Positions 4,586-54,690 of a DNA stretch of 64,000 bases are shown here, one piece after another. The DNA lies in the NCBI GenBank assembly GCA_963402885.1, contig OY727093.1, forward strand, positions 7,079,501 to 7,143,500. The letters are read 5' to 3'. The notes under the pieces are model-generated. The model was not told where the DNA came from. It ran no database searches and worked only from the letters and a program-made list of their open reading frames with translations. This stretch comes from Antedon bifida (taxonomy: Eukaryota; Echinodermata; Crinoidea; Comatulida; Antedonidae). Within the stretch, counting starts at the first letter, position 1. Every line of letters starts with the position of its first letter. The position numbers and the translations under genes were made by a program.

Positions 4586-7500
4586 ATGGATGATCACAGT
4601 TACAGCAAAGCTCATTCAAGATCGAAATCTATACTTTTCACAGCTCAAGTTTTTGGGGAAGCAATACCGGATGAAGGTTAGACTAGGCCTAGGCCTATAC
4701 CATGGGATGTTATTAAGCCTAGGCCCTAGCTAGGCCTAGGCTAGACCTATAAAAGTTCTTAGCAAGCTAGGCCTAGCTGGCCCAGGGCCAGGCTAGGTCT
4801 ACTAGGCCTAGGCCTACTACTAGATGGATCGCCTAGAGCTACTGTAGGCCTAGGGCAGACAGGAAGGAGGCTTACTCCTACTAGGCTAGTAGGCCTAGTT
4901 AGTAAGTAGACCGGAGGCATACCATAGGCTAATAGCCTAACTAGGCATTGCCATTGGCTAAAATTAAAAACGCTAGTTTTTAGGCTAATTCAAATGTAAA
5001 CATTGCATATTTTATTCTTAAATTTTCTACTACGGTCTATTTACAGGTTCACCCCAATTCTTAAATCCAGAAAAGCACCTACGTCAAGTTAATGAATGCT
5101 GCATTATTAAGTGTGAGGAAAAAGAGCATTGCGAAGGATGGCATTGCCCCCTCTGTAACATGACTAGATCAAGATATCGAATGAGGAACCATTTCTTCAC
5201 AGTTCATTGGGCGTCTCGCGTTACAATTGGTGGTAACTATTTTTCTTACATATTGTTATTAACATATTGTTTCCTGAATTATGATTAGATTACCATAAAA
5301 CTATTATAAAATGTCATTATTTAGTTTTCATCATGTTATTTTGAAACATTGCATCTATTTTTTACTTGGTTATTTTTTAATGTTTTTGAAACAGAAATCA
5401 ATTCGTTGCTTTGCAAGTGTAAAATCCCGAATGTGACGACACCTCGCCATTGGCACTGTCCATTCTGCAACACTAAGCCGTATTTCAAACTGAAGTATTT
5501 GGTTTTCCACATCGGCCGTGTACACAAACCAAACAAAACTGTGCAAGGATACACTCAACGAAAACTTGCTTACACCGTTGATTCTACCACCAACGCTGAT
5601 GAAACAAGTGCTGAACCAACGAATGATAATACCCTGGATGTCAACAACATTCGTTTATTAACTTGGACACCCAATAGTAAAGACACCAAAGATTTTTCTT
5701 TTCTTGGTTCTCATGGTTAGTATTGTTCAACAACTGTATATCCTCTGGTATAATCCCACCCCTAGAACAGGAAACTGGGCCAACTTTGGGGGGTGGGACT
5801 ATACCCAGGAAATGCCTGGTTTAGGAAATAAATGATTGGTATTATCATTTCTTGTAAAAACTGAACTGGCTAGAGAGAGGTCTACATCCAGACCAAAAGT
5901 CAATACTGGGACTATACCTGGGGATATGCCTGTGAAATCAAACATAAAGTAGAGGGTAGAGATTAGACCCCAACTGGGATTATGTGCGAGGATATACGGT
6001 ATTATTGTTCATGCTGGGCCCTCTGGGACGACAGTCTTTGACTATAGTGGTCCCCCGGTGTAAAGGAAAAATAAATAATACAATAAAAAATATTTTAAAA
6101 ATTGTAACCCTACTTGTAACCTGTCACTGATGACATGTTTTATTAAACTGTATACTACTACTAGGTTGGTTTGACCAGTTTATTCTATTTGACCACAGGT
6201 TGCAAATTGATTCGTTGTACAGACCCTGGTCACTGTGCTGGCTGGCATTGCTCTCTATGTCCACATGCTACACAAAAACACAGAGTTAGAAGACATTTAC
6301 TATCTACGCATTGGGCATGTAGGATTGAAGTCGGCGGTAAGTTAAATGATATCACTATATAAAGGGGATCCTTTTTTTTGGTGTCCCCTTAAAGATACCG
6401 TAAATCTTCTAATAGTAACCCACACTCTAATAGTAACCCCCCTTAAAGAATAGTAACCCACCCTAAAAAACAATCAAAGAATAATAACCCAGGGTTACAA
6501 TTAGATTTACGGTATATTGTTTAAAAAAAATGTTTTTCAATGTTTTTGTTGATATGCCATTTTAATGTCACATAATTGTTATTCACTTTGACCAAAAATT
6601 GGATTGGAAAAAAAAAATCAAAGCAAAAAATAGTCAAATCGATTGGATTGAAGTCATGTTTTTTTTGGTTGAATTTAACAGTTTATTTAGTCTTTTTATG
6701 AGTGAAAACATTATTGTTTTTTTTTTTTCCATGGGAGTGATTAACCATATTAAAACTGCAAAATGGCCTATTCAAAGTCTCTTTTTGGTAATCTTAATTG
6801 TTCATGTTTTTGTGGACAATACTGTCAATTCTATATTTATGTGCTGTATTGTAGAACACCCTTACATTATTACATACAAATAAGTAGATTGTTTACAAAT
6901 AACACATTTTTCATCTATGACATTTTATTGGTTTGCAGATAAAGTGGCAGTAATGTGCAAATGTGATCAGATCTCAAGATCTGGCTTAAGACATTGGCAT
7001 TGCCATTTCTGCAATAAGAAAATGTCTCGACCTAAGAAATTAATATTGCATGTTATGAATGTCCACAAACCAGACGATCTTGTGAAGAGATATTCAATGG
7101 GAAAACTTCACAGCTGTTTTAACACAAGTGGTATTGTTTCAGTACCACCAGCAGTGGACGACAAACAAGAATTTCCAATACAAGGTATAGACATTTTGAG
7201 TGATAAGAATGTTAACACACAATTTGGTGATCTAAATGTTCCCTAGTTTCTAGTTTTATGTGTATTTATTTATTTGTTGCCAATATAAGAATAAGAAGTG
7301 AGTATGCCTGTATATGGAATTTATCTAAGTTTAGCAAAAAAAATCATCTTAAGTTTGTTTAAAGTCAGTGTTTTTGCTTAAGTCAGTTTTCAAAATAACC
7401 TCATAAACTAATTTTACATGTTTCCTTTTTTAAATAAAATGTCAGTTTTTTCATTTAAGCACTTCTTAACTATCTTGATTTAAGTAAAAATATAATACCA

Positions 7501-10500
7501 TCTAGGGTTTATAATTAGTTGTTTTATTATTTCAGTGCCTTCGTTTGACTGTGAGATTATTAAATGCCTTGAAGCTGGTCATTGTAAGGGATGGCACTGT
7601 CCCTTGTGTACCGTAAATGGTAGAAAATATTATATAAATAATCATCTGCACACTGTCCATTTTGGTTCCAGATTGGAATTTGAAGGTAATATTCTTTATA
7701 GTTAATTGTACTTGTCAGGAAATTTCCCACAATATCTCACTGTCACATCAGTAAGCATGGGTTGTGAAATTTGAAAAATATATCAAATATTGATTACTTT
7801 AGAGGTTTTCTTTTCATTGTTTATCAATTTTTTTATGAAGAATAATAACTTGCATTCTCCTAGTATTCATATATAATATAATATAATTTTTTCCCGAAAT
7901 TATTGGAATTGGAGACAAGTCTCTCAGAGGGGCCACAAAGCCAGTGTTTTCCCCTTATATTATTATTATTATTAACTAATCTTAATTACAACAAAAAAGA
8001 AAAACAAAAATCACTTTAGTTTTCTTCTTGATTTTAACAGATAAAGTTTCAGTTATGTGCAAGTGTGGCTCAAATGGAAGAAAAACTCCCAGGCACTGGC
8101 ACTGTCCACTATGCACGAATACACCATACGTCAAATCCAAAATGCTTATGAATCATGTTTTATCTGTGCATAAGCCACAAACAACTGTGAGACGTTATTG
8201 TCAAGGAAAGTTAGTGACAGTTATTAATCAAGGTGAAAAACCTGATCCACCAAAAAGAAAGAAAGAGAAACCAAATTTGACAGAGTCACTATTATATAAT
8301 GGTTCAAGTAAGTATGTAAAATAATTACAAATACAATGGCCTGGATGGATGCTAGTCAAGTCACCCCATCGCAAAGTTGCCCATTACACAGTCGCCCCAT
8401 CGCAAAGTCGCCCCGACACAGTCGCCCCATCGCAAAGTCGCCCCAACGTAAAGTCGCCCCATCGCAAAGTCGCCCCAACACAAAGTCGCCCCATCGCAAA
8501 GTCGCCCCAAAACGTTAAAATAGTTTACAAGTGCGTAAAATGTCGCAATGATACACAAAATAACATGGAACGTGTAGGCATAAAATGGGAAGCCCCGCCA
8601 TGTACTCTCAGGTCACACGATCGGCACGTTCTCCCATCATCAGAGAGGAAGCCCCCGACTAATCACTCCGCGGTCGCACTAACGTGCTAGCTAGCTCACC
8701 AGAGGGAAACCCCCGTAATTACTCCGCCGTTGTCGCACAATACAACGCACCATCTGAAGATGGGGAAACCCCTCCGGAGTTTTACGATGATATCAGTCGC
8801 GTTTAATTTTGGTCGCGATAAAATGATGTTTACGATCTAGATTATTTTTACTTTGGTCGATGAATATTTATTATTATCATTATTAGGGCTATATTACTAA
8901 TTGATTTGTTTTTATTTTGCAGGTTTATGATGTAATCTTTTTAGAACTTTCAAACAAGGATTATTTTATTAATGAGTTTTAAAAAGCACATCACTCCATT
9001 AAAACCTGTAAAATAAACATTAAAACACAAATTATGTATATAATAGGATAAACATATAATGTATACGACATTTAGCGCGACCAAAGTAACAACGCGATCG
9101 ATATCAAACGCAACCGATATGATTAAAACAGCGTAAACTACTACTAGCGGCGGCGCTTCATAGTCATACCGAAATAAAACCATGGGCGACTTTGCGATGG
9201 GGCGACTTTGCGTTGGGGCGACTTTGCGTTGGGGCGACTTTGCGATGGGGCAAATTTGCAATGGGGCGACTTTGTAATGGGGCGACTTTGCGATGGGGCG
9301 ACTGTGCCGGGGCGACTTTGCGATGGGGCGACTTTGTATTGGGCGACTTTGCGATGGGGCGACTTGACTGGATCCCTTCAATAGGATGTCTTTATTTCAA
9401 TGAAATACATTAGTTGAGTTCAACCATTTTATTTAAATATAGAGGTCACCGCAATGTTGAGTCCCTTAGCAAGACAATTATCCACCTTGCTCTTTCCCAC
9501 AAAGGTGACCAAAATGGGTACTGGTGTGTAAAAATACTGACTAATCCTCCTCCAAGTCACCCCCCTCTCCTACCAACAATCATACACAATTTGTGGAGTC
9601 TGTGCAAACACTAAGGAAATAGAGTTAACACCACGGTTGTTAATCTTTAGTTTCAAATTTACCTTACTGGGATTTTTTTTGTACATAAGTTGGGGACACC
9701 TTTGTGAAAGATAGCCGAACTACCCCCTAAATAATCTCTCTCACTATAAAGAAAAAGAAGTTACTCATGGGATTCGAACCCTATACATCGATATGTAAAG
9801 TTCATAGTCTAATCCACTCGACGGTAGCAAATTTTATGGATTTGACTAATGAATATTTTATTTTGTGATGTTTCATGAGGGGCCCTAACTTATGTACAGA
9901 AAGAAATCGCGACCTGTTGACCTTGATAGATACCTCTACTTCCTTTGGCTTCTATGGGCCTGTAGAGCCTTAATCAGTGCATCCATGATTGGTCGTTGTT
10001 GATGAATGGCGAAGCAATATCAATGTTGTAAGAATAAATAAAAAGCATAAAAGAAAAATAGATAAATAAATAAAATAATATCAAAGTACTATATATACTC
10101 TTTACTGCTTTTATATTTCAGCGATTGACATTATTCCGTGTGAGTTAGACGTGCACTGTGAGGGATGGCATTGTCCATTGTGTGATAAGGCTGCTAGGAA
10201 ATACATCATAAAAAGACATCTATATGCTGTCCACTGGGGTTCTCGAGTGCAAGTGGGAGGTAACACTAATTATATAAGTTAATGAATAATTAATAATAAT
10301 AATTAATTAATATAATTTTCCTAGCCCATTCATTTATTATTTTAGTGGCACAAAATAAAATAAACTCTTATGAAATATTGCTTTAGGTGCAGCTCTTGTG
10401 TGGTTGAGAACTGCTGCTAAATTTTAACTAGCCTTAATTTTTCATCACTCCCACTTTTTCCCTACACTAAACTAATACTATTATTGTGAATTAATAAATT

Positions 10501-13500
10501 TCATTCAGAATGTTGTTTCATTATCTTTATAGATATGAAAGCACTGCTATGCAAGTGCCTAATGACCAAGGTAAAAGCATCACGCCACTTTCATTGTCCA
10601 CTCTGCGAAAACGTAGTATATTCTAAGTCTGTGCAATTGCAAAAGCATATTCTACGTGAACATTCACCGACTGCTGACGTTTACCAGTATTTCAAGGACC
10701 AAGCCATAAGCATTCTAAAAGGCAAACCTCAGCGTGAGTCATTATTAATGATGGATGCAGATGAAGACATACAAACTTTTGATACCACAATGGAAACAAC
10801 AGAACTTGCAGAAGCTACAGAAATCTTGGAAGCTACAGAACCAACAACGTCAGAACCAAATACCACAATTGTTAGGAAAGACCAAGATGGCCAAAATGGT
10901 AAAGAATATACTTTTTTAGAAGTATTCGTATAGGCAAGTCAAAGTAACATTTACGCAATTGTATAACCAAGGCCGTAGCGAGAGGTTAAAAACAGACGAG
11001 GAAAAGATGCTTTAAATATAATTATTAATATCAAATATGATGATCTGTGTAGGGGAATTGGGTGGGTGGTTAAAATTGAAATTTCAGACAAGCGCCGAGT
11101 CTGCCTCATAATGGCTATGGCCCACTAGAAGTTTGTATCACAAGGACCCCAAATAAGGTATATTATGTGACATTTAATAACAAAAAATAAATAAACTAAA
11201 AGAATATACTTTACATATAATATATAAAGCTCCTCATAACTAAAATGTGTATGTAGGTTTCGTTTTTTAACCACTACATTGTTGGGTCAAGAAAAGCTTG
11301 TAAAGAGTTTGCATGATCGGTCACAAATATACATTAATATATAAAGCTTTTGAAATAGAATTTGGATTTACAATTTGTATATTCTTGCTTTCTTAGAGTG
11401 GGATATGGTGAAATGTGCTGAAACAGAACATTGTGAGGGATGGCACTGTACTCTTTGTACCATGACTGGGAATATGCATAAATTAAAGAAACACTTTCGT
11501 ATTAATCATCGTAGCTCTCGTATTGAAGTTGGTGGTGAGTTTTTATTGTTTACCGTTTATAGCGTTGCACTGACGTAAATCATCAAGTGCATGAAATATA
11601 TATGAAAAATTGAGAAGAACTAGGGTGTCAACTTTGTTCTTCTCAGTTAACTACACCTTATCGCAACAATTCGTCGGCGACGCCATGAAGTGACACTAAT
11701 GTGGCTACAGACACTACACATGTGAAATGGATTTAACCTTAACATACTATTTCATTAATTATTTAATAAAATTACACATTTAATAGCTGAATTGTCTAGC
11801 TTTACAGGGGTGTAAATAAATCATATAAATGAAAATTTCTTTAAGCTAAAATTATGTGTTTTGTAAAGCTCTCTACTAATTTGCGTTTTTCACAAACGCA
11901 TGGTTATGTCAAATGACTATGCGGTTAGTATCTCTTTCTGGTGTGGTTAACAAATTCTTATTTATTTTACTGTGATTCTATTCATAGGGATGGCCATTAT
12001 TGCATGTATGTGTAGGAAAGTATCCGGGCTTGGACACCAACACTGGCACTGTCCTTTGTGCGTTAATCGCAGTTTTTCAAGAATTCTTAGCCTTGAAGAT
12101 CACTTTGTATCCACACACAAACCTATAGCTGAGGTGAAGAGGTTTGCAAGGGGTAACATTATAACTGTAAAAGACTATGCCAATCCAACGAAATTCAACC
12201 AGCAGTTTAGCAACGATGATGACAAAGTTGATGGTACATATGCTTTGATTGTAATTATGTATATAATACAGGGGCGGATTCAAGTATGCCCTCTAAATTT
12301 CACAAATTGTAATGCCAAAAATAAGTTCAGCACTTCATTACACTACTTTTGGCCTCCCTACTTCAAAATCTGCCACTGGAATATGGTTATGGTATGGATA
12401 CGCCATCACATGTGAAATCTCATATCATAGACTCTAACCAAACCCTTAACCTTACATGAAACATATGAGACGCTGTATTACAGAGGTTGCCTATGATACT
12501 GGACAAATATTGTTTTTTTTGTAGAGATACAGCACTGAGAATCGGGTGCTATTGTTTAGATGTTCATTTCATTCATCAATCATACAATAATAAATTTATT
12601 TATATTTTTTTATTAAATTTAGAACCTCCACCAAAACAGGATTGTACTGTGCTCAAGTGTACATTGGAAGGGCATTGCCTTGGATGGCATTGTCCATTTT
12701 GTTCTGTAAATGGAGAAAGGTTCCGAGTAAGGAATCATATTAAATCTGTGCATTGGGGGTCTCGTATAGAGATGGGAGGTAAGTTTCCTAAGTAGTACAG
12801 TACATTTTTTTTATTACAAAGGATTATATGCCGTGCCACGCCTTTTTTCCTTCTATTTTAGGAATATTGTCAAGGATAACTATACATGACCGTGTTCATA
12901 GTACAAATATATACACAGTTGCTTGATTTGATTTTGATTTTTCCACTTTATTTTAATTTTTTTAATACAGTCAACTTTCTTGGGCTGACCTAATATGTCT
13001 AGTTTTCTGGAAAGTGTGGTATACAAAATGCGTTTTTAATGGTATAGATCAATTTTTCAGAGTTATTTGAAGAGTTTTCTGTATTAAAGATCTTATAATG
13101 AATAATTGTGATTTTTAGATACATGGTCAGTTTTATGCAAATGTAAAAACGCAAATAAGACGACGCCACGACACTGGCATTGCACTTTGTGCGCAGACTC
13201 TACGTTCTCAAAGTCACACATCCTGGAAAAGCACTTGATGCACATTCACAAAGTCACAACTGACGTAAAACGCTTTTCAAGATGCAAGCTTGTAGCAGTG
13301 AATGGGGTACCATTAAATGGCGAGACAGCTATGTGTAGCACTGTTACCGAAGAAGATAAACAACCTTCACTGATTCCAGAGAACGTTGACCTAGTAATAC
13401 CCAATCAAAATGTAATCATACAGGATGAACAACCAATCAGAGAAGATGAACAACCCACGGTATCGGAGGAAATTTTGAAATTTACCTGTGTAAGTCATGT

Positions 13501-13884
13501 GCTAAGACAATTGTATCATAACTTTTTATAAAATGCATAAATAATGTCAAATACAAATTCTTTTCCGTACACTATGGCATGAATTAAAATAGTTATTATT
13601 TATACTTGCATATTCATTAAATTTAAACCTTATATACAGAATAAATACAATTATTTATCAGGTAACGCTGATATGAGCTTGGAGATAAATGTTTTAATAT
13701 AACGGTTAATTCATGCAGGGAAGAGTTAAATTAATTTTTCCCTGATTCATTTGAATATTTAATATTCTTTAAAGAGGGGATGAAAAAGTTGTGGGAGGAT
13801 ATGCTAAATACGATAAATAAACATGTACTATTCAATTATTCTTTTCAGGCTTGGAAGCTTTTAGAAGAGATTGCAGAAAACTAA
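4586..13884 (+). CDS. tandem double-zinc-module protein, six A+B exon pairs (949 aa, unnamed family)
   Basis: I do not recognise a named family. Exons: 4586-4676, 5047-5232, 5395-5715, 6199-6336, 6939-7184, 7536-7685, 8041-8307, 10122-10259, 10533-10898, 11397-11534, 11988-12233, 12623-12778, 13119-13489, 13849-13884. Each internal boundary has AG/GT; all introns are phase 1 except the last (phase 0), and the joined frame is open from ATG 4586 to TAA. After a 30-residue leader, exons alternate type A, C-x4-H-C-x-G-W-H-C-x2-C-x11-H-x4-H, and type B, C-x-C-x9-H-[WF]-H-C-x2-C-x12/13-H-x4-H. Each has eight potential zinc ligands: a C2H2-like finger fused to a second Cys/His site. B exons also carry VHKP-x3-V-[KR]-R-[YF] and variable acidic tails. 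PPKRKK near residue 450 may be a nuclear signal. Nucleic-acid binding is inference. Confidence 0.85.
4677..5046. repeat. intron 1, rich in TAGGCCTA palindromes
   Basis: Intron 1 of the zinc-module gene is packed with AGGCCT/TAGGCCTA/CTAGGCCTAG words from 4681 to about 4950, in both orientations because the word is its own complement. The same word is clustered inside the 634-bp MITE and around 54800-55075. It has no unit of fixed length, so this is motif enrichment rather than a true tandem repeat. Confidence 0.6.
5047..5715 (+). CDS. module pair 1 (exons A1 and B1)
   Basis: A1 (5047-5232) has KCEEKEHCEGWHCPLC then H-x4-H and ends VHWASRVTIGG. B1 (5395-5715) has LLCKC, nine residues, then HWHCPFC and H-x4-H followed by KP. 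B1 carries a long Asn/Thr/Asp-rich tail with no recognised motif. The intron between them is 162 bp, the shortest in the gene. A1 is longer than the other A exons because it also encodes the linker from the N-terminal leader. Confidence 0.85.
5732..6001. mobile_element. MITE in the B1-A2 intron
   Basis: Left end CTGTATATCCTCTGG and right end GAGGATATACGGTA are inverted matches, with a further inner match of TAATCCCA/TGGGATTA. About 270 bp, no coding capacity. The right end is followed by TA, so a Tc1/mariner-type target is possible, but the left flank has no clean TA copy. Confidence 0.55.
6199..7184 (+). CDS. module pair 2 (exons A2 and B2)
   Basis: A2 (6199-6336) has RCTDPGHCAGWHCSLC, with Ser replacing the usual Pro, and ends THWACRIEVGG. 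B2 (6939-7184) has VMCKC, then HWHCHFC and an x12 finger spacing, one shorter than other B modules, then VHKP. Both exons are multiples of three (138 and 246 nt) and phase 1-1. Confidence 0.85.
6396..6514. mobile_element. 119-bp MITE with TA flanks in the A2-B2 intron
   Basis: Terminal inverted repeats TACCGTAAATCT and AGATTTACGGTA, flanked by TA on both sides, as in Tc1/mariner-type elements. The inside is a short degenerate tandem of TAATAGTAACCC. No coding capacity. Confidence 0.6.
7536..8307 (+). CDS. module pair 3 (exons A3 and B3) with basic tail
   Basis: A3 (7536-7685) has KCLEAGHCKGWHCPLC; its post-finger signature is changed to VHFGSRLEFEG (Phe for Trp). B3 (8041-8307) has VMCKC, TPRHWHCPLC and VHKP, and its tail carries PPKRKKEK, which resembles a monopartite nuclear localisation signal. 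The 1.8-kb intron after B3 hosts a foldback transposon but the exon frames are intact. Confidence 0.85.
8347..9374. mobile_element. foldback transposon with minisatellite arms
   Basis: An intronic element of about 1 kb whose ends are inverted arrays of the same 16-bp unit, CGCAAAGTCGCCCCAT: about 8354-8515 in one orientation and about 9185-9369 in the other. The outermost sequence AGTCAAGTC is shared by both ends (preceded by GGATGCT on the left, GGATCC on the right, read inward). Inner segments also pair in inverted fashion (ttttggtcgcg near 8810, cgcgaccaaag near 9075). No transposase is visible. The structure resembles Foldback-type elements, where arms of tandem repeats replace simple inverted ends. 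Confidence 0.75.
9700..9832 (-). mobile_element. tRNA-derived SINE-like fragment
   Basis: On the minus strand an A-box-like ACCGTCGAGTGGATTAGAC (near 9806-9826) is followed by a perfect B box GGTTCGAATCCC (9769-9780). The stems of a true tRNA do not form in the anticodon region, so this is more likely a tRNA-derived SINE head than a functional tRNA gene. Confidence 0.45.
10122..10898 (+). CDS. module pair 4 (exons A4 and B4)
   Basis: A4 (10122-10259) has PCELDVHCEGWHCPLC and VHWGSRVQVGG. B4 (10533-10898) has LLCKC and ASRHFHCPLC, with Phe in place of the central Trp, and EHSP instead of VHKP. Its long tail is Thr/Glu-rich with short repeats (EATEILEATEPTT), suggesting a disordered acidic linker. 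Confidence 0.85.
11397..12233 (+). CDS. module pair 5 (exons A5 and B5)
   Basis: A5 (11397-11534) has KCAETEHCEGWHCTLC and NHRSSRIEVGG (Arg for Trp). B5 (11988-12233) has ACMCR, nine residues, then HWHCPLC and THKP. All eight potential ligands are kept in both exons although the surrounding residues are the most diverged of the B set. Confidence 0.85.
12269..12378. mobile_element. short hAT-like MITE in the B5-A6 intron
   Basis: Ends CAGGGGCGGATT and the inverted AATCTGCCACTG match a CAGNGG-type terminus typical of hAT superfamily elements. About 110 bp. The flanks do not show a convincing 8-bp duplication, so the call is tentative. Confidence 0.4.
12623..13884 (+). CDS. module pair 6 and terminal exon (A6, B6, C-terminus)
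   Basis: A6 (12623-12778) has KCTLEGHCLGWHCPFC and VHWGSRIEMGG. B6 (13119-13489) has VLCKC, TPRHWHCTLC and IHKV, then an acidic tail with a small internal repeat (DEQPIREDEQPTV). B6 is the only module exon that ends in phase 0 (TGT/gtaagt). The last exon (13849-13884) adds AWKLLEEIAEN and a TAA stop. Confidence 0.8.
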
Positions 13885-51200: not shown

Positions 51201-51508
51201 GTCAATCTATTGGCGCTTGCACCATTTAAAATAGTGTTTTAGTTGGCTATTATAGACGGCGAGTAGGGTTCCTGTCGGGAACTCGTCACAAGAAGGGCGG
51301 CCAGGCCATTTGGAATGTCCGAGACTCTGAGCTGATCCCCGACAGTGGCAATACAATCAGGTCGAGGGATCGGGGGTTCGGCAAAGTTCAGTCCTGCGTC
51401 AGCAGGTCTCCCTGAATCTGGAGACGTAGAGGCTGATCGTAAAGCAGGCTGATGAGCAGAAAAACCCACGTCTGTTGTGGGCAACGGCTCTATCAGAAGT
51501 ACTCGGCA

Positions 51509-52060
51509 TTAATGGCGTTGAATGTGCGTCAGGACCAACGGCAGTATCGAAATTTGTGGAAATGCATGAGCCCAAAACCGTCCCACGGTATGGACAGGCA
51601 TCCACTGCCCACGCATGTTCATCTTGACTAAGTGCGGAAGATGCATGCTGCCTGACGTCGCAAACAGATCTATGTGGGGCCGCCCAAAGTGGTTGAAATT
51701 TGGGTGGCAATCGGCGGAAGGAGACGCCATTCCGTAAGATGTAGATGTGGGTTGGGACAGAGTGTCCGCTTCCACATTCAGTCGGCCTGCAACTTGGGCC
51801 ACTGAGTTCTACGTTGTGGTCTGTGCACCACATTAGTAACGTCCATGTGTCGCAGCACAGTGTTGGGGACCACATGTCCCCTTGCTGTTTATGTGAGCAA
51901 CCACAGTTGTATTGATGGAATTGGCGAGAACATGGCGATTTGCCAGATGGGGTAGGAGAGCTTCCAATGTACGCTCAACTGCCCAGTTCAAAACGGTTGA
52001 TGTGGGCATGTCTCCTTGCATGATCAAATGCCGGAGAAGCGACTTCCACTGACAGTGCAT
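51509..52060 (-). pseudogene. DIRS RNase H region
   Basis: Fragments in shifted frames: NTTVVAHINSKGT, then GRLNVEADTLS, FGRPHIDLFAT and WAHAFPQISILPLVL. These are the typical order of the RNase H end of DIRS polyproteins. At least one frameshift separates the first from the others. Confidence 0.75.
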
Positions 52061-52483
52061 AGCCGCCCCAACCTACTTCGGACGCATCCGTTTCAAAACG
52101 GAATTCCGGCTCTGACCTCTGAATGGGTCTGCCCACAAGCAACCAGCCTTCCGCAAGCTACCAGATGCGTGAGAATGAACGCATTCATTACAACCACTTT
52201 GTGAAGTGAGTCTGATTTTGGACGGTAAGCTGCCGGGAGGTGCAATCGTAATGGTCGCATCCTGAGTCGGTAGCACGGAACGAGGGCGACGAAGCTAGAC
52301 AGTGACTCTATGTGCGTAGCCAGTCATACCCCGTCGGAGCATGAGCATGAGATGTAGCACTGCATATCTTGCCTTGGCCACTCGCTCATATGGATGGGCA
52401 CGCATGGCCCGTTACCAAATTGATTTGAGCTCCGAGATAAAGAGGATTCTGTGTAGGCAGAAGACAAGATGTTGCTTCATTTA

Positions 52484-54690
52484 CGCCTGCAGACCTTCCT
52501 CCCCAGGCCCGTCTCGTTCTCCCATACTTATTCTTGGAGAGCGAGACCATTGTAAAAAACGAGGTTTGCTGTGGGCCTATATATCAATATATGAGACTGG
52601 GGGAGGAGGTCTTATGCGAGAGGGTGCGTTGGGCTCATCCCTCGGCAAGCTCTCACTGCTACAGATGGCTTGCAGTAACACCGGAGAAAACTCATTCACC
52701 CCGGGACCGCAGAGGCCGCAGCGTTGCATTGTAGCTGCATATTGGAATCCTGCTTGTTCCGTTACGAGGCGGAAAAATGCTAGGCTGTTTAACAGCTGGT
52801 CCCTGGACTGGGCCACGATAACCAATCGTCTAAGTACATAAATGTTTGATGTTTGACTGCCGTGTTGGTGGAAGAACGTTTCCAGCGTTCGTACCAGGCG
52901 TGTCACACACGCAGGGCCGTTTAGAGGCCGAACAGCAGAGCGACGAATTGGTATAAGTGATCATGGTTTCGAAAGCTCATGATCCTGACCTGCAATAGGC
53001 ATGTGAAAGCACTCTTTAGCGCCTTTCGGTCTATTGTGGCAGCCCAGTCGCCTCGTCTTAGCCCCAACAGGATAGATGAAGGCTGTCTACATCCTACCTG
53101 CAGGGCCGAATGAACCGTTTGTTCAGACTTAAAGGGGTAGCCAATTGCCAGATTTCTTTTCTGGCAAGAGATGGTGGACTTGTGTCCCGGGATCGCATAT
53201 TGAATATGAACTTGCACCACAGCTCCTTTTGGAGAAGTGCGTCGAGGCCGGCCATGAGCGCCTGTCTTTTAAGCGGCTCTGACGGAACCTCGTATGTCGG
53301 GCACCACCTCTCATAGGGGCTCGAAATGATATGCGATACCCGAGCGCTAACAGTAGAGACCTACTTATCCTTTGTCATGGCCTACTGTACCATACCTGCG
53401 CAAAACCATCTCAGGCGACCCCTCCCACCTGCCCGCCCTCGCTCGGAGGGACGGCGCCCCCAAACCGTCACCGGCACTTCACATTGTTGTGGCGTCGACC
53501 ACCTCTGTGGTGAGCGCCTCTCTCGCCACTATTTCCATGACGGGGATTATGTAAAGCTTGTCTAGAAGTAGAAGCCTCGTTTCTTTGCATAGGCTGTGCC
53601 GGTGGCGGAGGGGGTAGCTGCATCTGCAAAGGAGCAGCGGGGGAGCCGGCGGTCGCGATACTGTCCTTGGCGGAAAGCTGCCGGGAGGTGCAATAGTAAT
53701 GGTCACATCCTGAGCCGGCAGCACGGAACGAGGGCGACGAAGCTGGCCAGTGACTCTAATGTGCGTAGCCAGTCGTACCCCGTCGGAGCATGAGCATGAG
53801 ATGTAGCACTGCATATCTTGCCTTGGCCACTCGCTCATATGGATGGGCACGCACGGCCCGTTACCTAATTAATTTGAGCTCCGAGATATTAAACGAGGAT
53901 TCTGTGTAGGCAGAAGACATGATTTTGCCTCGTTTATAAGGAATCCTGCTTGTTCCGTTACGAGGCGGACAAATGCTAGGCTGTTTAACAACTAGTCCCT
54001 GGACTGGGCCACGATAACCAATCGTCTAAGTACATAAATATTTGAATGCTGTGTTGGTGGAAGAACGCTACCAGCGTTCGTACCAGGCGTGTCACACACG
54101 CAGGGCCGTTGAGAGGCCAAACAGCAGCGACGAATTGGTAGAAGTGGTCATGGTTTCGGAACACATGATCCTGATCTGCAATAGACATGTGACAGCACTC
54201 TTTAGCGTCTTTCGGTCTATTGTGGCAGCCCAGTCGCCTCGTCTTAGCCCCAACAGGATAGATGAGGCTGTCTCCATCCTACCTGCAGGGCCGAATGAAC
54301 CGTTTGGTTTATGAATTCAACGCCAAAGAAAATAAAGGACAGTACCGCCGTCCGTTTCGCGAACGCCTGCAGACCTTCCTCCCCAGGCCCGTCTCGTTCT
54401 CCCATACTTATTCTTGGAGAGCGAGACCATCGTCCTATCACTGTCATCTCTTGCCAGATAGACGGACCATCGTAAAAACAAGGTTTGCTGTGGGCCTATA
54501 TATCGATATATGAAACTGGGGGAGGAGGTCTCATGTGAGAGGGTGCGTTGGGCTCATCCCTCGGCAGAGCTCTCCGTGCTGCAACGATGGCTTGCAGTAA
54601 CACCGGAGAAATCTCATTCAACCCCGGGACCGCAGAGGCCGCAGCGGGTGCAGGCATGATTGGAGGTGCATTGTAGCTGCACTGAAAACA
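52484..54690 (-). pseudogene. DIRS reverse transcriptase, duplicated and shuffled
   Basis: The right copy (about 53985-54450) retains LLGLRRGDWAATIDRK, LFGLSTA and the active-site YLDDWL; the left copy (about 52755-53220) retains LLGLRRGDWAATIDRK, TRLVRTLETFFHQH and SRDQLLNSLAF. Three DNA segments occur twice with altered order: 52220-52470 with 53670-53930, 52755-53125 with 53945-54310, and 52484-52740 with 54361-54680. The element has thus been rearranged or two related elements are nested. Confidence 0.75.

Follow-up and report, generated by a model that had tools for sequence, protein, structure and literature searches.

We have analysed a 64,000-nucleotide stretch of the genome of the crinoid Antedon bifida (GenBank assembly GCA_963402885.1, contig OY727093.1, positions 7,079,501 to 7,143,500 of the forward strand), referred to below as the window, in which an earlier note had described a gene built from 6 tandem pairs of alternating double-zinc exons. 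With exon ends set at GT and AG sites, the gene comprises 14 exons on the + strand between positions 4586 and 13884 (Table 1). Joined, they give a coding sequence of 2,850 bases, or 949 residues plus a stop codon, which agrees with the open frame reported in the note. All 13 introns have a GT donor and an AG acceptor; 12 of them are of phase 1, and the last, between B6 and exon 14, is of phase 0. Since each A or B exon is surrounded by phase 1 introns, duplication of such an exon keeps the reading frame. Splicing of the 14 exons into one message is predicted from the splice sites, the open frame and the gene models of 2 other crinoids.

Table 1. Exons of the Antedon bifida gene (positions in the window) and the related repeated element on contig 13 of the same genome
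Feature	Position	Strand	Evidence or remarks
Exon 1	4586..4676	+	Start codon, MDDHSYS, conserved in Anneissia
Exon A1	5047..5232	+	Splice sites and open frame, A skeleton
Exon B1	5395..5715	+	B skeleton; matched by Saccoglossus LOC102807716
Exon A2	6199..6336	+	Splice sites and open frame, A skeleton
Exon B2	6939..7184	+	Splice sites and open frame, B skeleton
Exon A3	7536..7685	+	Splice sites and open frame, A skeleton
Exon B3	8041..8307	+	B skeleton; basic PPKRKK stretch inside; matched by Saccoglossus LOC102807716
Exon A4	10122..10259	+	Splice sites and open frame, A skeleton
Exon B4	10533..10898	+	Splice sites and open frame, B skeleton
Exon A5	11397..11534	+	Splice sites and open frame, A skeleton
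Exon B5	11988..12233	+	Splice sites and open frame, B skeleton
Exon A6	12623..12778	+	Splice sites and open frame, A skeleton
Exon B6	13119..13489	+	B skeleton; matched by Saccoglossus LOC102807716
Exon 14	13849..13884	+	Final 11 residues and stop
Repeated element	C13:10925523-10934721 (L022:3524 to L029:2722)		~9.2 kb; long inverted ends

The 6 A and 6 B modules alternate strictly from position 5112 to position 13249 of the + strand, just where the note had placed them, and every one fits the skeleton of its type: C-x4-H-C-x-G-W-H-C-x2-C-x11-H-x4-H in 6 of 6 A modules and C-x-C-x9-H-x-H-C-x2-C-x12/13-H-x4-H in 6 of 6 B modules, the spacing ahead of H-x4-H being x12 in B2 and x13 in the other 5. 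Each module can be described as a C2H2-like finger (C-x2-C ... H-x4-H) preceded by a second set of 4 ligands, which is C, H, C, H in A and C, C, H, H in B. The modules together carry a net charge of +41, and the remainder of the protein carries -15. Neither pattern had a further match in the 6 frames of the window, and both were absent from 50 mononucleotide shuffles of the window and from 92,070 bases of this genome that cover 30 ordinary C2H2 loci. A first, loose DNA pattern, which gave 739 forward and 586 reverse matches as compared with 474 and 546 in a reversed control, was dropped.

The double-zinc module corresponds to no named family in Pfam, NCBIfam or PDB sequences, as the earlier note had supposed; the matches from these sources were either weak and C2H2-like or due to chance. 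A Pfam search with the whole protein, taken up to E 10, listed neither zf-C2H2 (PF00096, PF13894), nor CxC4 (PF18717), nor the KDZ transposase domain (PF18758). With single pairs, zf-C2H2_4 matched weakly in 5 of 9 pairs (best E 4.1e-4) and zf-Di19 (PF05605) in 6 of 9 (best E 1e-3). Scores relative to the Pfam cut-offs are given here for pair 1, with the other pairs judged by E value, and that pair reached 15.2 bits against a cut-off of 27 for zf-C2H2_4 and 15.7 bits against 27.5 for zf-Di19. The crinoid protein thus resembles tandem C2H2 proteins (PF00096, PF13894) in the C-x2-C ... H-x4-H half of its modules, with a putative helix ahead of the 2 histidines, but differs from them in the extra set of ligands in front, in the x11 spacing of A, in having one module per exon and in scores that fall below the Pfam cut-offs. 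The literature searched, mostly titles and the beginnings of abstracts, contained no description of the gene or of an A-B domain.

The closest database match, 952 residues long and 96% identical over the full length, was an uncharacterized Antedon mediterranea protein, predicted to be continuous across the same junctions, with small insertions within exons. In Anneissia japonica we found 2 partial models, LOC117102059, which covers the first 2 pairs and most of the third, and LOC117102018, which runs from late A3 to B6; the 2 overlap in A3 and B3 and were therefore read as one gene. Its product begins with MDDHSYS like the Antedon protein, and the PPKRKK stretch of B3 is partly retained as PKRR. 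The proteins from the 3 species thus share module order, start and identical ligands, although those of A. mediterranea and Anneissia are unnamed and the Anneissia gene is divided over 2 overlapping models. No mention of the 2 Anneissia locus names, or of the Saccoglossus locus name introduced below, was found in the literature searched.

We used these orthologues to compare the rates of change within and outside the modules. All 96 ligands agree between the 2 Antedon species, and those compared with the 2 Anneissia models agree at 46 of 46 and 58 of 58 positions, by which all 96 are covered, 8 of them twice. Non-ligand module residues are identical at 72 of 155 and 109 of 199 positions (46-55%), and residues outside the modules at 109 of 205 and 146 of 320 (46-53%). 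Gap columns number 0 within the modules, and 12 and 47 outside. By this alignment, ligands and spacing are held and the non-ligand residues of the modules change about as fast as the linkers; the modules are set apart by invariant ligands and by the absence of gaps, not by slower substitution. The earlier note had contrasted ligand conservation with linker divergence, and the first half of that contrast is borne out by all 96 ligands, whereas the second calls for caution, the linkers being no faster in substitution than the non-ligand module residues.

Pairs 1, 2, 4, 5 and 6 of Antedon and Anneissia are reciprocal best matches (58-73%, as compared with 50% or less for other pairings), pair 3 having been left out of the scoring since the Anneissia model breaks there. 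In a tree, 4 of the 5 testable pairs form supported clades, and pair 5 lies at an open base. These same-pair matches indicate that the six-pair array predates the split of the 2 lineages and that its pairs are not undergoing homogenisation. A search of the genome (315.6 Mb, 27 contigs) gave 13 matches, of which 12 were the gene's own modules, and the gene is thus single copy, with no paralogues in this genome beyond those 12 modules. As predicted from these data, its product is a single-copy protein of 6 A-B units that has so far been seen in crinoids alone.

The 13th match (E 0.0186) led to an open reading frame (ORF) of 866 residues on contig 13, and a profile of the pairs, compared with 5.8 billion proteins, led to LOC102807716 of Saccoglossus kowalevskii (733 residues, E 7.4e-4). 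The N-terminus of the latter, SVMCKC ... TPRHWHCPFC, is a B module that keeps the C-x-C and H-x-H of the front site and is 54-56% identical to modules of the crinoid gene. Its likeness to that gene consists of this front site and the TPRHWHCPFC core, and it differs in having a single module, which is followed by a body of element type, some 600 residues long. The body is 32% identical to the contig 13 ORF (199 of 623 positions, E 5e-85), and a genome search with the whole Saccoglossus protein recovered copies of the element described below and, independently, 3 of the 6 B exons of the crinoid gene (B6, E 2.9e-6; B3, E 6.4e-5; B1, E 2.1e-4). We also noted that the Saccoglossus protein lacks the CxC4 part of its contig 13 relative; possibly, the gene model is incomplete.

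CxC4, a cluster of cysteines whose Pfam name links it to KDZ transposases, was located at 3 places in the Antedon genome, on contigs 10, 13 and 8. The contig 13 ORF carries it barely over the cut-off (27.8 against 26.9), and an ORF of 1,459 residues on contig 10 carries it at 38.6 bits, together with a SprT-like domain. Both ORFs begin with an A-B-like unit (hhalign, 95.6% and 95.0%), in which 14 residues separate the last histidine of A from the first cysteine of B, as they do in the crinoid gene. This N-terminal A-B zinc unit is a feature that we recognise here and do not take from a published definition, and the crinoid gene has it. The element proteins differ from the crinoid protein in that CxC4 follows the unit, and in the SprT-like domain, which is present in the contig 10 ORF and in the ORF that follows the contig 13 ORF. 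The contig 10 ORF (L026:2649-7025, - strand) holds the A-B-like unit, CxC4, a tandem SEPTPTTSSEHATPKQP-like stretch and the SprT-like domain in one unbroken frame; the parts fused there are 2 ORFs on contig 13.

One alternative is that the crinoid gene encodes an ordinary, lineage-specific transcription factor with many C2H2 fingers, in which the additional cysteines and histidines are convergent and the likeness to element proteins reflects a generic C2H2 core. The second half of each module is indeed C2H2-like, and A and B can be aligned with each other over that core alone (25 columns); an older duplication that gave rise to A and B is possible. However, in a comparison with ordinary fingers of the same genome (50 ORFs with 382 C2H2 fingers, from 30 loci among 150 listed PF00096 matches), a hidden Markov model (HMM) built from 9 pairs gave 36.6 bits for LOC102807716, 27.1 for the contig 13 ORF and 25.1 for the contig 10 ORF, and 11.5 for the best control. 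The corresponding hhalign scores were 78.6, 52.6 and 49.5, and 34.4 for the best control. The Saccoglossus protein also has the front-site C-x-C and H-x-H in common with the crinoid gene, as well as the full TPRHWHCPFC run, and both element ORFs preserve the 14-residue spacing from A to B. We consider this alternative, already disfavoured, to be quite improbable. By these sequence comparisons, the B module is homologous to element-type proteins, and the homology is likely to extend to the whole A-B unit. The searches returned no named family, yet they did uncover relatives, namely the C2H2-like half and the CxC4/KDZ-associated proteins: the A-B pair, as judged from these matches, is not an orphan, and its relatives form the N-termini of transposon-type proteins, in a hemichordate as well as in this genome.

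That the contig 13 ORF belongs to a mobile element is indicated by its surroundings. It lies in a repeated element (Table 1) in which one ORF carries the A-B-like unit together with CxC4 and another the SprT-like domain. Related copies were found at 5 further places, on contigs 1 (2 copies), 10, 11 and 15; their main aligned blocks are 94-97% identical, and the majority have a large internal deletion. The ends are inverted repeats, 93% alike across 564 columns, and the left edge, GAGACGGG, is common to 5 copies, of which 2 have the same outer flank, leaving 4 independent flanks. In the contig 13 copy, an 8-base sequence, TAATATTG, was read by eye on both flanks. At the extreme tips of this copy, over roughly ten bases, the 2 ends do not match. 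Scans of viral contigs with the A1 profile, LOC102807716 and the contig 13 ORF confirmed no relative, and a viral origin was set aside.

In the aggregate, we think it somewhat probable that a zinc domain of a transposon was domesticated, amplified as exon pairs and now serves as a multivalent nuclear DNA binder. This reading builds on what the sequences show, namely the gene structure, the ligand constraint, homology for the B module and an A-B arrangement in element proteins. The A-B unit would have a common ancestor with the zinc unit at the N-terminus of CxC4/KDZ-associated transposon-type proteins. Transfer would have run from element to host, and the captured part would have been the front end of an element protein without the rest, presumably the part that contacts DNA or chromatin. 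An exon pair of phase 1 would then have been duplicated, up to 6 pairs, before the 2 sampled crinoid lineages split.

Several observations weigh against this reading. LOC102807716 has a cysteine at the last ligand position, its model contains no A module, and Pfam found no CxC4 in it. The E value of the contig 13 lead is marginal, the contig 13 and contig 10 proteins have no A front site and show C-x3-H where B has C-x-C, and a protein-database search with the contig 13 N-terminus gave 8 candidates, none at E 1 or lower. Nor was PF18758 listed for either protein; since the KDZ transposase domain was not found, the label "KDZ-associated" is taken from CxC4 alone. Non-ligand module residues are, as described above, no more conserved than linkers, and structure models of the protein were weak: that of a three-pair stretch had a mean predicted local distance difference test (pLDDT) score of 36.6, too low for use, and a second one 63.5.

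The reduced front sites argue that the contig 13 and contig 10 proteins are not the direct donor of the crinoid gene. The Saccoglossus B module is nearer to the crinoid modules than are the local elements, and the donor would therefore be either an unseen element resembling LOC102807716 or no element at all, the flow having been the reverse. By the latter account an old host zinc domain was taken up by elements, or a third family fed both, and the crinoid gene is an ordinary host gene that expanded in place. The 54-56% identity of the Saccoglossus module, much closer than the units of the crinoid elements, and the seemingly reduced front sites of those elements would fit such a history. On the other hand, searches that covered proteins of similar length sharing exact words returned no non-crinoid host gene that carries the unit, a weak negative; they gave 2 matches among 3,149 candidates and 3 among 847, LOC102807716 being the only one from outside crinoids. 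We regard reverse flow or a common source as unlikely, although it deserves serious attention.

With regard to function, we favour a protein that may bind up to 24 zinc ions, 2 per module, and that would be nuclear and touch DNA at several points together, as a transcription or chromatin regulator. C2H2-like fingers bind RNA and proteins too, and the linkers of the crinoid protein are long and acidic, as might suit an RNA- or protein-binding role, for example as a scaffold. Nothing direct speaks against such a role, which we nevertheless think rather doubtful, since origin from an element and basic modules favour DNA. The earlier note had suggested recognition of DNA or RNA from the finger-like layout and a basic stretch; we still infer as much, on the firmer basis that the element-protein relatives provide. 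It is also conceivable, but very improbable in our judgement, that A-B is an unnamed DNA-recognition domain from a group of animal transposons, and that crinoids, having captured it and multiplied it six-fold, employ the array to read the repeated ends of the element family in a multivalent manner, as a defence derived from the targeting domain of the element itself. A partial parallel comes from fish F-box genes, which carry a KDZ-associated zinc-chelating domain, CxC7, for which recognition of DNA sequences or of chromatin proteins has been hypothesised (PMC12062965). In the accessible part of that report, those genes differ from the crinoid gene in having another zinc domain, joined to an F-box, with no tandem array described (PMC12062965).

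If domestication did occur, the gene would be a clear example of an unnamed transposon zinc domain made into a host gene through exon-pair duplication, which is made easy, in frame, by the position of each A or B module in an exon flanked by phase 1 introns. The 6 conserved natural copies of a likely nucleic-acid-binding unit would also give a handle on the front end of little-studied animal element proteins, and a Pfam-type profile of the A-B unit would give a name to a family now labelled "uncharacterized".

We made several further observations in the window. No RNA or tRNA genes were found in its 64 kb. The first intron of the gene contains, by eye, low-complexity repeats of the TAGGCCTAGGCC type throughout positions 4690-4960. 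Between B3 and A4, the intron contains an element roughly 1 kb long (8354-9369), with inverted ends of 157 bases that are 90% complementary; it is built of short repeats, AGTCGCCCCATCGCAA, and looks like a non-autonomous insertion. Finally, the longest open stretches of the window outside repeats are 2, at 51399-51974 (- strand, 191 residues) and 52320-52841 (+ strand, 173 residues).

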